NCBI GenBank assembly: GCA_947168725.1
Contig: CAMVNA010000005.1
Location: 1 to 64,000, forward strand
DNA: 64,000 nt
Direction of reading: 5' to 3'
From: an uncultured bacterium
GTDB taxonomy: Bacteria > Patescibacteriota > Gracilibacteria > Absconditabacterales > Absconditicoccaceae
Part shown: positions 9,695-60,180 of the stretch, one piece after another
How positions within the stretch are numbered: position 1 is the stretch's first letter
Layout: each line of letters opens with the position of its first letter
The notes under the pieces: model-generated
The model's database searches: none
Told to the model about the DNA's origin: nothing
What the model saw: only the letters and a program-made list of their open reading frames with translations
Translations under genes and position numbers: made by a program

Positions 9695-10156
9695 ATGAAC
9701 ATTTATCAAATTTTTGCGGTAATAATTGGTATACTAATTATTGCCCACTGCTTTGTTTATGCAGTATTTAGGCCAAAGGCCTTTAGTAACATTACAGACA
9801 TAATAGTTTTCGGCGGTGTTGCAATTGGCTCAACTTCGATGGCATTAGCCCATCCATCATGGTGGACTGTAGGGATATCAATGTACATTCTCATATTATT
9901 CCGTATATCTGTATGTACTAATACGAACCGGGAATTATGGAATTTTGGCTACTACGGATATAATCTCAGCCATTTCCGAAAGTTCTTAAGAGTTTTATTA
10001 TCATGGATTACTCTAATAACCATGTTTATAATAAGCATCAAAATGCTATTGATAAGTAATGGTTGGTCTATGATTATAGTGTATTTCCCTATTGCTGTTT
10101 GGGTGCTAATAATCGTCAGCTTACACGTTAAAAGAGCATTAGAGAGCCTCGATTAA
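9695..10156 (+). CDS. Multi-pass membrane protein, TGA-free cassette gene
   Basis: A 153-residue hydrophobic protein with about four membrane segments: the start to residue 22, about 35-55, about 60-75, then two near the C-terminus (roughly 105-125 and 127-145). All eight glycines use GGN and none uses TGA, unlike the neighbours. Codons such as GGC, TCG and CGG are also more common. It is a single gene between its own TTGACT promoter and a strong terminator. I recognise no family and no catalytic motif. An unknown inner-membrane protein, probably acquired from a standard-code organism or kept free of TGA, is the most I can say. Confidence 0.75.
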   Translation: MNIYQIFAVIIGILIIAHCFVYAVFRPKAFSNITDIIVFGGVAIGSTSMALAHPSWWTVGISMYILILFRISVCTNTNRELWNFGYYGYNLSHFRKFLRVLLSWITLITMFIISIKMLLISNGWSMIIVYFPIAVWVLIIVSLHVKRALESLD

Positions 10157-46999: not shown

Positions 47000-47377
47000 A
47001 TGTTTTTTTCGAATCTAATTTTTACTGTGCTCATATTATTTGTTGGAGCATTTATTTCTTTTGTGATTATCCCATTCTTTGGGGTTAAGTTCTGTAAGGG
47101 TGATGATGATTTAACTGGAGAGAGTTTAGATTCTCATGTTTCTATGTGGGACTTTATCAAGGAATTTCCAGCATGGATATGGATATTATCTTTACTTGTA
47201 TTTCAGGCTTGCATTATCTATACTCTCAACTTGTGGTGTTCATCTTTATTTGATGACTGTAGATGGTTATTGAGTCTTTCTCGTTTTTTCTGCTTTTTTG
47301 CAATCATTGTATACCTAATCCTTGTAAATGTAACAAATGATGTTGGAGAGATCAAATGGTTTAAAAAGAAAGAATAA
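47000..47377 (+). CDS. Three-helix membrane protein, TGA-free cassette gene
   Basis: 125 residues with three membrane helices (about residues 5-27, 55-78 and 92-112), separated by an acidic loop with GDDDLTGESLD. All five glycines are GGN. It sits alone between an AT-rich promoter region (TATATTATAAT near 46966) and a terminator. No known family; it resembles the other small membrane-protein cassettes at 9.7, 47.5 and 59.8 kb in size and layout, not in sequence. Confidence 0.72.
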   Translation: MFFSNLIFTVLILFVGAFISFVIIPFFGVKFCKGDDDLTGESLDSHVSMWDFIKEFPAWIWILSLLVFQACIIYTLNLWCSSLFDDCRWLLSLSRFFCFFAIIVYLILVNVTNDVGEIKWFKKKE

Positions 47378-47519: not shown

Positions 47520-47804
47520 ATGATTTTATTCAAGATTGTTGTAACCATTTGTTGTTTGATTTCAGTCGTTGTACTTGGCTATTGTTCAATAATCCTTAAT
47601 AGGAGCCGTATTACAAATCGGACCCCCATTGGATGGTGGATTGTTGGGGTGGGTGTTATACAACTCTTCATCATAATGATTCCTGCAGTTTGGTGGAATG
47701 AATGGTGGATTGATCATGCGTTAATTTTGAGCATCTCTGCTGGAATAGCCATAGTATCTAGTATTCTATGGGCCATCATCGAAGTTGCTAGTAGGTGGCA
47801 CTAA
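47520..47804 (+). CDS. Small membrane protein, TGA-free cassette gene
   Basis: 94 residues with three hydrophobic helices (about 5-25, 38-60 and 68-90) and a Trp-rich part (WWNEWW). All five glycines use GGN. Its own promoter lies about 50 bp upstream and a terminator follows. No family recognised. It lies next to another cassette (47000) but shows no clear sequence similarity to it. Confidence 0.7.
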   Translation: MILFKIVVTICCLISVVVLGYCSIILNRSRITNRTPIGWWIVGVGVIQLFIIMIPAVWWNEWWIDHALILSISAGIAIVSSILWAIIEVASRWH

Positions 47805-54101: not shown

Positions 54102-54251
54102 GTTTTGTCTATAAATTATGTAAAATTTGAGCCAAATCTCATATTTTGGACTAACATCCCTTATAGACAATGGTTTTTGTATTTCAAGTCAAAATGTCTA
54201 AATTGACGATAGCAATTGGTTATCATTTTTTCACTAATAAAACTTTTTTTG

Positions 54252-54285
54252 AAAAAAAACTGGTGGGAAAATCCACACCAGTTCT
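54252..54285 (-). terminator. Terminator of the 54.3-kb cassette
   Basis: On the minus strand AACTGGTG pairs with CACCAGTT and is followed by eight T residues. It starts about 20 bases after the TGA at 54305-54307, which fits TGA being the gene's stop. Confidence 0.9.
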
Positions 54286-54304
54286 CATTGAAAAGGATTT
54301 GGCT

Positions 54305-54478
54305 TCATCTACCTCTCTTAAAGTTTTCTACTAAGCCAAGAAAAACTTGCCTAGAGATGTTGTCGGTTTCTCCTTTGTAGAATTCTCTTTTACAGAAATC
54401 GAGGAAGACCGAAACTTGATCAGCCATAAAATAATCCTCTGCCCACTCATAAAGGGGCTTCATAGTTAAAAAACCCAT
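54305..54478 (-). CDS. 57-residue protein ending in TGA before its own terminator (cassette gene)
   Basis: From ATG at 54478 the product is MGFLTMKPLYEWAEDYF..., ending FKRGR, 57 residues. A promoter just upstream (TATACT at 54528-54533) excludes the longer frame from 54556. All four glycines are GGN. The frame ends at TGA (54305-54307). Reading that as glycine would extend it straight through the terminator hairpin to TAA at 54161 (106 codons), which makes little sense. So TGA is either a true stop here or a relic of a standard-code origin. No family recognised. Confidence 0.62.
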   Translation of the reverse strand: MGFLTMKPLYEWAEDYFMADQVSVFLDFCKREFYKGETDNISRQVFLGLVENFKRGR

Positions 54479-54527
54479 TTTTTCTTTGTTTTTTAATGTT
54501 AGTACTAATTTTAAATCTGTATCGATT

Positions 54528-54556
54528 AGTATAATGATATACATATTAAAAATCAA
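54528..54556 (-). promoter_or_regulatory. Promoter of the 54.3-kb cassette
   Basis: On the minus strand TTGATT (54556-54551) and TATACT (54533-54528) are exactly 17 bp apart. The start at 54478 is about 45 bases beyond. Confidence 0.65.
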
Positions 54557-58529: not shown

Positions 58530-59039
58530 ATGGGAAATTTAACTAAAAGAGAGCTGTTATCTCATGTAATGAAGCTACATGTGATAATAGAACTCATTAA
58601 CACAGAAAATTGCTACGATAAAATTGTAAAGTTCTTCCAAATTACCAGCGAACTACAAGATCGTAGTGAAGAAATTATGAAATTACTTCCTCCTATAGAA
58701 GGGATCAATTTCTGTGGGTGGAAGTCAGCAAAACGTAAGCAATCGGAAAATTCTCGGATGAGAGCCGAGATAAAACTTGATGGGCTTTTGCGTGAAATTA
58801 ACAAAGCAGGAAGAGATTCTTTTGGACACAACCGTACAAAGCCTGGAGAAGATGTAACTAAGGATAACGTCTATTTTGGAGACGTATGGGGTATTGGAAC
58901 TTTTAGCATCAGAACGTTCGAAGAGGAATGCAAGAATGACACATTTGTCCAGACACACATACGCAACCAAATTACTAGATTTGTGAAATCCTATGAAGAT
59001 ATCTTCAATGCTAATTGGCTCATGTTCTGAATCCATTAA
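58530..59039 (+). CDS. Cassette protein A (paralogue of 59174), TGA-free up to a TGA three codons before TAA
   Basis: 166 residues to TGA at 59028, or 169 to TAA at 59037 if that TGA is read as glycine. It is soluble and mostly helical. Shared with the 59174 protein along the whole length: ENCYDK, LQD, FCG, NKAGRD..GHNRT, DN.YFGDV and ECKND-like blocks, with three aligned cysteines. All ten or so glycines are GGN. The paralogue ends at the same place as this TGA, so TGA was probably the ancestral stop. No known family or catalytic motif. Confidence 0.75.
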
Positions 59040-59046
59040 TTTTATA

Positions 59047-59075
59047 ATGTGGTAGGTATATCCTATCACATTTTT
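59047..59075 (+). terminator. Cassette terminator (ATGTGGTAGG type)
   Basis: ATGTGGTAGG pairs with CCTATCACAT across TATAT, followed by T residues. Nearly identical, with compensating base changes, to the terminator at 60206. Confidence 0.9.
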
Positions 59076-59096
59076 AAATTATATTCATAAAATTAC

Positions 59097-59125
59097 TTGA
59101 CATTTTGTATAAAAATATATATATA
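59097..59125 (+). promoter_or_regulatory. TTGACA promoter of the 59.2-kb cassette
   Basis: TTGACA at 59097 with TATATA at 59120, 17 bp apart. The leader also resembles that of 58530 (AAAATRTCAAAC). Confidence 0.7.
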
Positions 59126-59173
59126 CAATACATACAAGAAAACAAAATGTCAAACCATTAAAAAATTAAAAAA

Positions 59174-59671
59174 ATGAAATTATTTTCGAAAAATCAGTTC
59201 GTTGCTGAGGTTAAGAATCTCAACCAGATCATCAACCACATCAACGAGGAGAATTGCTATGACAAAGTGGTGGAATTCTTCACTATCACTAGCTATCTCC
59301 AAGACCACGCCAGGGAAATCGAGGAGTTTTTGCCCACTGTAAGAGGCTTCAAATTCTGTGGAATTAAGTCATCTTATAGGAAAGAATGTGAATTCAAGAG
59401 GGCTAAAGCCAAGCTCGGACTCAACGAATTCATGAGTGAGCTCAACAAAGCTGGCAGAGATAAGTATGGGCACAATCGGACAGAAAGCGGAGAAGCTGTA
59501 TCCAAAGACAACATCTATTTCGGTGATGTCGCTGGGATCTGGACCTTCTGTATTGCCGATTTTGAAAACAAATGCAAAAACGATGCCTACGTCCAGGAAA
59601 ACATCCGAGCTCAAATTACCGGATTTGTGAAGTCCTACGAAGGCTCCTTTAACCTCGATTGGGTTGCTTAA
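59174..59671 (+). CDS. Cassette protein B (paralogue of 58530), GC-rich codons
   Basis: 165 residues, ATG to TAA, soluble and helical. The same conserved blocks as its upstream paralogue occur: NHINEENCYDK, FCGIKSS, NKAGRDKYGHNRTESGE, DNIYFGDVAGI and KCKND. Codon choice is strikingly different from everything around it (AAC, ATC, CTC, GAG, AAG, GGC), and all ten glycines are GGN. This fits recent arrival from a higher-GC, standard-code genome, or strong codon selection. Function unknown. The conserved GRDxxGHNRT..GE block is a candidate active or binding site. Confidence 0.77.
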   Translation: MKLFSKNQFVAEVKNLNQIINHINEENCYDKVVEFFTITSYLQDHAREIEEFLPTVRGFKFCGIKSSYRKECEFKRAKAKLGLNEFMSELNKAGRDKYGHNRTESGEAVSKDNIYFGDVAGIWTFCIADFENKCKNDAYVQENIRAQITGFVKSYEGSFNLDWVA

Positions 59672-59692
59672 AATTAATTAACTTTTTAATCG

Positions 59693-59723
59693 TACGGCAG
59701 GTTTATCCTGCCGTATTTTTTTA
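59693..59723 (+). terminator. Terminator of the 59.2-kb cassette
   Basis: TACGGCAGG pairs perfectly with CCTGCCGTA over a five-base loop, followed by eight T residues; an unusually GC-rich stem for this window. Confidence 0.93.
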
Positions 59724-59760
59724 TTAAAATGACCTTTAAATTTTGATTTTCAAAAAGCAC

Positions 59761-59790
59761 TTGACTCTTTGATTAAAAAATACATATTAT
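59761..59790 (+). promoter_or_regulatory. TTGACT promoter of the 59.8-kb cassette
   Basis: TTGACT at 59761 is followed by TATTAT at 59785 (18 bp). The preceding GCACTTGACT matches the cassette promoter core. Confidence 0.6.
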
Positions 59791-59823
59791 ATATCGATAT
59801 ACAAATATACAAAAGTTTTTTAT

Positions 59824-60180
59824 ATGAAAAATTTAATTATTTTTAATTGGCTTGCGATTGTGGGACTTACCTGCTGTCTGGGTAACATCGCAAACATGCC
59901 TGATGACTGGTTCCCTGGAATTAGGGTATTTTGTGTCGCAGTAAGCACCTCCATTCTTGCATTCTTTTCCGCTAAATTCGACAACTATTCTGAAAAGCGG
60001 CTATCTAGTAGAGAAAGAACCTATGAGACAAAGCTGTATCTTGGTACAGCTATCCTTGCGGCAATAATACTAATGATTTGTTGCATTACAAGTTGTCCAT
60101 CCCTGATTACCATGACAGTTTGGATGATTTCGCTCATTGGTATATGTGTGCATCGAATTTCACACAACGAATTTGTGTAA
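59824..60180 (+). CDS. Four-helix membrane protein, TGA-free cassette gene
   Basis: 118 residues with four hydrophobic helices (about 3-22, 34-52, 75-93 and 96-112) and a charged middle loop (DNYSEKRLSSRERTYETK). The layout recalls small phage or superinfection-type membrane proteins only in outline. All five glycines are GGN and codons are mixed, with more C-ending choices. Own promoter and terminator. No family recognised. Confidence 0.72.
   Translation: MKNLIIFNWLAIVGLTCCLGNIANMPDDWFPGIRVFCVAVSTSILAFFSAKFDNYSEKRLSSRERTYETKLYLGTAILAAIILMICCITSCPSLITMTVWMISLIGICVHRISHNEFV

Follow-up and report, generated by a model that had tools for sequence, protein, structure and literature searches.

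The small gene that ends at 54,305 in the window (the whole stretch of DNA that was analysed, 64,000 nucleotides long) very likely evolved with TGA as its stop codon, within a chromosome that uses TGA for glycine. It is one of a class of TGA-free cassettes in which TGA, TAA, and TAG are interchangeable as stops, just as they are under the standard code.

Genetic code and anatomy of the unit

By the usual criteria, this genome uses code 25, in which TGA encodes Gly. There are 8 ORFs of at least 150 aa in the window under translation table 11 and 57 under table 25, and many of the latter hold dozens of in-frame TGAs; a tRNA with a TCA anticodon is present in the genome; and only one gene for a PCRF-domain release factor was found, with the context PETESQ-GRVHTS, which we take to be RF1-type. 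It is because the table-25 ORFs are TGA-rich, the TCA-anticodon tRNA is present, and the sole PCRF factor is of the RF1 type that we conclude that TGA is read as Gly. The assembly is about 91% complete, which limits any claim that a second release factor is absent.

Genome-wide, 62–63% of Gly codons are TGA, as against 23–27% in the S10 operons of G003, G004, G020, and G053 (G numbers are our handles for genomes, G000 being that of the window) and about 6–11% in EF-Tu genes. That the ribosomal and EF-Tu genes (L105–L108, S10 operon regions) lie far below the average is apparently an effect of expression on the reassigned codon; despite their low TGA, highly expressed native genes have a GC3 of about 0.18–0.22. 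The use of TGA for Gly differs strongly among close relatives, with TGA at only 13% of Gly codons in our sample of G002, a member of the same genus, and at 3–7% in the S10-operon regions of G007 and G002 (L109, L111, L120). A search of the window's own assembly did not recover ribosomal protein L2, and the ribosomal operon is probably missing.

The unit lies on the minus strand and consists of the following features.

54528..54556, minus strand: promoter, with −35 TTGATT (54556–54551), a 17-nt spacer, and −10 TATACT (54533–54528); conserved upstream of homologues
54479..54527, minus strand: A-rich 5′ leader, 66% A over the last 35 nt; the same leader type marks the class in G000, G004, and G020
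54308..54478, minus strand: TGA-free ORF of 57 aa, a member of a 12-member small-protein family
54305..54307, minus strand: TGA, very likely the evolved stop codon (Gly in the cell's own code); homologues end in TAA, TAG, or TGA
54250..54283, minus strand: intrinsic terminator, an 11-bp hairpin (54283–54258) and a T run; the CTGG...CCAG stem recurs in relatives
54161..54304, minus strand: would-be read-through extension, 47 codons to the TAA at 54163–54161; in reality the terminator and the upstream region of the next gene

The initial annotation, made from the letters alone, had claimed a 57-residue frame ending in TGA before its own terminator, a promoter with exact 17-bp spacing, and a frame which, with TGA read as Gly, stays open through the hairpin to 54161, and all three claims held: the frame starts at ATG 54478–54476, runs for 57 codons to TGA 54307–54305 and, if read through, closes only at TAA 54163–54161. 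It had also described a perfect hairpin about 20 bases further on, followed by eight T residues, and this held in part. The hairpin at 54283–54258 begins 21 nt past the TGA and reads AACTGGTGTGG-ATTT-TCCCACCAGTT, then eight T; the outer 8 bp of its stem are perfect, but the full 11 bp contain one mismatch.

By itself, the promoter-like match is at chance level (17 found versus 17.2 expected); it is credible because a conserved TTGATT-17-TATAAT precedes the homologous genes of G003 and G004. No Shine–Dalgarno sequence is present in the leader (54479–54527).

The frame at 54478–54305 is a real gene, since tblastn and profile searches recover a homologous protein family. A reading of the locus as a structured RNA (MFE z-score −2.8) was considered and rejected: the tblastn matches are those of a protein family, and the Rfam covariance models gave no match at the curated gathering thresholds, only matches with sub-gathering scores. 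The ORF has a GC3 of 0.40 (native genes, about 0.20), and its small product is predicted by AlphaFold2 to be mostly helical, with a mean pLDDT of 90. No significant match to the protein was found in Pfam, NCBIfam, PHROGs, or PADLOC, nor to its structure in PDB or BFVD. The gene is flanked by a Mur ligase gene on one side and a chromosomal membrane-protein gene on the other.

The small-protein family and its stop codons

The family comprises 12 fast-diverging members in two Gracilibacteria-type genera of one family, identified by tblastn and profile search. Homologues occur in G003 (three in tandem), G004, G005 (two in tandem), G020 (two), G053 (two), and G045. Those of G003 and G004 occupy the same slot, from the Mur ligase gene to the membrane-protein gene, and those of G005 adjoin the same Mur ligase gene. 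This slot is hypervariable (L037 1492–2330; L038 1903–2408), with one to three diverged tandem copies per species next to a Mur ligase that is 93–95% identical. Beyond G003–G005, a comparison of the slot found no conserved synteny and no empty site. Most family units carry a TTGATT-type promoter, an A-rich leader, and a terminator with a frequent CTGG...CCAG stem.

Nine of the 12 members stop with TAA or TAG and three with TGA. Besides the gene at 54,305, these are two genes of G053: in one (C5), the TGA is followed by a hairpin and the next TAG lies beyond it; in the other (C21), a TAG follows seven codons after the TGA. The C-terminal ends of the family members align to within a few residues, and the homologues in G003, G004, G005, and G020 stop with TAA or TAG at the matching position, immediately before their own terminators. 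Past the terminator at 54,250, the DNA is 78% identical to that of G004, where it likewise serves as sequence upstream of the next gene, and the comparison with G004 shows no conserved frame in it. Because this DNA is kept as an upstream region without a conserved frame, a protein extension past the TGA is not conserved. The check on homologues proposed in the initial annotation thus has an answer: relatives end at this position, and the conserved C-terminal extension that would have refuted the proposal is absent.

The family also avoids TGA within its frames, with none among 25 Gly codons versus 62–63% genome-wide, and has a GC3 of 0.34 versus 0.18–0.20 in the S10 operons of G003, G004, G020, and G053. 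This avoidance, like the family itself and the anatomy of the unit, is shown. Between G000 and G004, the ORF DNA of the small genes is 53% identical, while the noncoding flanks are 77–78% identical. In the neighbouring membrane protein, which is about 62% identical between the same two genomes, TGA and GGN have switched at 5 of 25 conserved Gly codons, and most newly arisen Gly codons are TGA. Although more diverged than this neighbour, the small genes have gained no TGA.

Two accounts of the locus were set aside. A recent foreign insertion at this one site cannot be the sole account, as family members fill the slot in four related species. A low-TGA donor from the same genus, such as G002 (13% TGA, GC3 0.32), would account for the scarcity of TGA, but not for the TGA stops.

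A class of TGA-free cassettes

We sampled 583 kb of G000, 198–240 kb each of G004, G020, and G011, and smaller stretches of G003 and G002; the survey therefore rests on sampled stretches and not on whole genomes. In ORFs containing six or more Gly codons, the fraction of these that are TGA has two peaks, the main one near 0.65 and the other, set apart, at zero. When binned by TGA fraction, GC3 is 0.29–0.35 at zero versus about 0.20 above 0.2, and the latter bins include highly expressed native genes.

Across G000, G003, G004, G011, and G020, there are 57 TGA-free, GC3-rich units with a terminator. Their GC3 is about 0.35 (native, 0.19), and they stop with TAA (38), TAG (9), or TGA (10). The unit at 54,305 is one beyond these 57, the scan having missed it by taking an upstream ATG. 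Extrapolation from the sampled stretches suggests several dozen promoter–ORF–terminator cassettes of this class per genome. About 20 class proteins were tested against Pfam, and three gave matches (Clp protease, NDK, and a GNAT domain). The TGA-free class includes a Clp-type protease with an N-terminal extension (L084 12419–13336) and a nucleoside diphosphate kinase (L148 8906–9409). On L074, the TCA-anticodon tRNA gene (346–419) adjoins a class unit (812–1210) that ends in TGA before a terminator.

The window itself contains seven further units of the class.

9695..10156, plus strand: membrane-type protein of 153 aa, TAA, terminator; homologue at L147
30074..30580, minus strand: 168 aa, TAG, terminator
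47000..47377, plus strand: 125 aa, TAA, terminator
47520..47804, plus strand: 94 aa, TAA, terminator
58530..59030, plus strand: 166 aa, TGA at none of 10 Gly codons, TGA stop, TAA two codons later, terminator
59174..59671, plus strand: TAA-ended paralogue of 58530–59030 (54% identity), GC3 0.55
59824..60180, plus strand: membrane-type protein of 118 aa, own promoter and terminator

The last three are consecutive TGA-free monocistronic units (58530–60180), two of them paralogous, just before a secE-like gene and nusG; no clearly similar homologue of these units was found among 40 related genomes. The structure predicted for the product of the 59174 unit had low confidence and carries no weight here.

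Could the terminal TGAs be accidents? Eight TGA-ended class units have no TAA or TAG before the hairpin. Directly upstream of 352 strong terminators in four genomes, counting only bodies without TAA or TAG before the hairpin, we found 10 TGA-ended, GC3-rich bodies of at least 45 codons versus 0.9 at random positions, and 8 versus 0.03 for bodies of at least 90 codons. Where a GC3-rich ORF contains a single TGA, it falls within the last 16% of the frame in 7 of 13 cases; GC3-poor ORFs with a single TGA (n = 9) show no clustering near the frame end.

Homologous pairs, moreover, swap stops. L101 (G000, TAA) and L124 (G020, TGA) are 40% identical and each end in Glu-Ile; in L124, a hairpin lies 6 nt after the TGA and the next stop is 52 codons on. 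Within the window, the unit at 58530 has TGA and its paralogue at 59174 has TAA, and across species the unit at 54,305 has TGA where G003–G005 have TAA or TAG. Because such pairs exchange TGA for TAA or TAG at the same end, the three codons serve this class interchangeably as stops, in the manner of the standard code, and the use of TGA as one of three stops is shown.

The class also has expression signals of its own. In G000, the motif TTGAC[AT]TTT precedes 14 of 22 class units versus 7 of 169 native genes whose upstream region is free (p = 5e-11); the A content of leaders is 56% in the class and 37% in native genes (p = 8e-10). In G020, AAACAAA is found in the upstream regions of 13 of 20 class units versus 3 of 55 native genes, and leaders are 56% versus 35% A. 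The class leaders of G011 are not A-rich; there, a Shine–Dalgarno sequence is commoner (4 of 6 versus 7 of 62 native genes). Bacteroidota-type promoters, tried as a pointer to a host, were not enriched. These tests are independent of TGA content, and the contrasts persist when starts are bounded by an in-frame stop, though start-site errors may blur the native set. A class-specific promoter and leader are, like the stops, shown. For the survey as a whole, one should keep in mind that it uses MAG data from sampled stretches, that the class is partly defined by the absence of TGA, and that there are no RNA or protein data.

The unit at 54,305 lacks what would be expected of a native code-25 gene: TGA for most Gly codons (which its family lacks as well), TAA or TAG before the terminator, and a GC3 of about 0.20 with a native leader. 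Nor do the unit and its family look like highly expressed native genes, with a GC3 of 0.34–0.40 versus 0.18–0.20 in S10 operons. The claim of the initial annotation that TGA was the stop where this unit evolved has therefore held, on the evidence of the homologue ends, the class-wide TGA stops, and the TGA/TAA pairs. Its wording, that the arrangement "only makes sense" in this way, was too strong for a single locus, since TAA or TAG ends the genes of relatives in that slot, and loss of the stop by change from TAA to TGA is possible.

Explanations, precedents, and meaning

The best explanation, and one that we consider as likely to fail as to stand, is that these cassettes are written in the standard code and were imported from cells that use it, or shuttle through such cells. 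The unit at 54,305 would then be a standard-code gene cassette carried by a chromosome in which TGA means glycine. Placed in a cell with the standard code, it would have its translation ended at 54305 by release factor 2 and its transcription by the hairpin, about 50 nt further on. In its present cell, the TCA-anticodon tRNA would decode the TGA as Gly and ribosomes would continue into the terminator, with a stalled nonstop complex or a 105-residue extended product as the outcome. The cassettes would come from, and still exchange with, standard-code cells, be they prey, neighbours, or elements moving between them, and selection would maintain their readability under the standard code. Both the exchange and the fate of the transcript in the present cell are inferred.

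In support of import are the TGA-free Gly codons of the family (0 of 25), the zero peak with its raised GC3, the excess of TGA ends at terminators, and the class's own signals; further support comes from the L101/L124 pair, the finding of an RF1-type factor alone, the TCA-anticodon tRNA, and a dapD gene in G011 (L122 11341–12495, minus strand). This dapD has a GC3 of 0.72, is 75% identical in DNA to that of Escherichia coli, stops with TGA before its own GC-rich terminator, and is preceded by an AT-rich TTGACA/TATAAT-type promoter and a GGAGG site. It looks like an unrecoded import, and is likely evidence that standard-code genes do enter unrecoded.

Against import, the class members tried have no homologue in phage, plasmid, or IMG/VR collections or in other sampled Patescibacteria (for the one family tested, no relative was found in 380 sampled genomes of the phylum). 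The family has apparently diversified where it sits, as it occupies one slot in four species and its tandem copies share a promoter, and simple import is strained because such diversification should have let some TGA accumulate. Finally, a promoter and leader common to the class within a species suit one regulated set better than random imports.

A rival that we consider unlikely is that the class is meant for expression in the host or prey: the episymbiont would deliver DNA (or RNA), which the prey's RNA polymerase, ribosomes, and RF2 would read, and promoter, leader, and codon usage would therefore be kept in host style. In its bolder form, equally improbable, recoded episymbionts would keep a regulated standard-code gene set for the host cell, with TGA stops that need host RF2. 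Both the transfer and the host expression are inferred. In favour, TGA stops only where RF2 exists, and an RF1-type factor alone was found here; the avoidance of TGA survives in-place diversification; and the signals are unlike native ones and lineage-specific (A-rich leaders in G000, G004, and G020, Shine–Dalgarno in G011). Against it, no delivery route was found: searches for a type IV coupling protein came up empty in G000, G003, G004, and G011 and gave only weak matches in G020 and G053, so that a T4SS route was set aside for the window's genome. We know of no earlier case in which these bacteria deliver DNA, and several class members have housekeeping-type folds (Clp protease, NDK). As an account of why standard-code units persist, import or exchange is the more conservative.

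It is also unlikely that this is an ordinary native gene whose TAA stop was lost by point mutation to TGA, so that its product is now extended or trans-translated. In its favour, TAA or TAG ends the genes that occupy this slot in relatives, the change from TAA to TGA is a single transition, and the evidence at the locus comes from one MAG. Against it, TGA before a terminator also closes two other members of the family and some ten unrelated units, a clear excess over chance, and this body, without TGA and with a high GC3, does not resemble native genes.

Two further rivals are very improbable. Very high expression would avoid the TGA glycine codon and leave a TGA-free body without deeper meaning, in line with the low TGA of ribosomal operons and EF-Tu, but highly expressed native genes do not share the GC3 of the class, and the terminal TGA is left without account. 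A phase-specific native regulon, in which TGA terminates in the cell itself (e.g., with the TCA-anticodon tRNA absent and an unknown factor releasing), would fit the class's own promoter and leader and the action of TGA as a stop in this class only, but an RF1-type release factor alone was found, albeit in an incomplete assembly.

We found no report of a TGA-free class with a shared promoter and leader in the literature searched; there are three partial precedents. Liu et al. 2023 (PMC10746230) described code-11-compatible phages of Gracilibacteria and Absconditabacteria, in which backup stops are reported, and prophages of these hosts rich in in-frame TGA. The likeness to the code-11-compatible phages lies in the lack of in-frame TGA in or near a host that reads TGA as Gly, and in being thought readable in both codes. 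Unlike them, the class consists of single chromosomal cassettes among native genes; several units, including that at 54,305, have no backup stop before the terminator (58530–59030 has one); and the unit at 54,305 is not in a phage or prophage and has no phage, plasmid, IMG/VR, or PHROG match. The absconditabacterium Vampirococcus lugosii (PMC8080830) is reported to have 126 acquired genes, and the aberrant read-through of foreign UGA stops was discussed for it. It too is an epibiont with TGA as Gly that has taken up foreign genes, but we know of no TGA-free class with a shared promoter and leader and a retained TGA stop described for it. Phage morons are single ORFs with their own promoter and terminator, as are the class units; these, however, are not inside a prophage, form a whole class with common signals, and include a family without a PHROG match.

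Two gene populations in two genetic codes within one genome are unexpected. In practice, code-25 gene callers would extend the proteins of this class through their terminators, and a search for TGA-free, TGA-ended units is an easy way to look for interaction genes in uncultured episymbionts from sequence. Should the standard-code set prove to be imported, it illustrates how foreign genes enter recoded lineages and what limits the code sets on their uptake; should it be intended for the host, one bacterium would have a novel means of acting on another.
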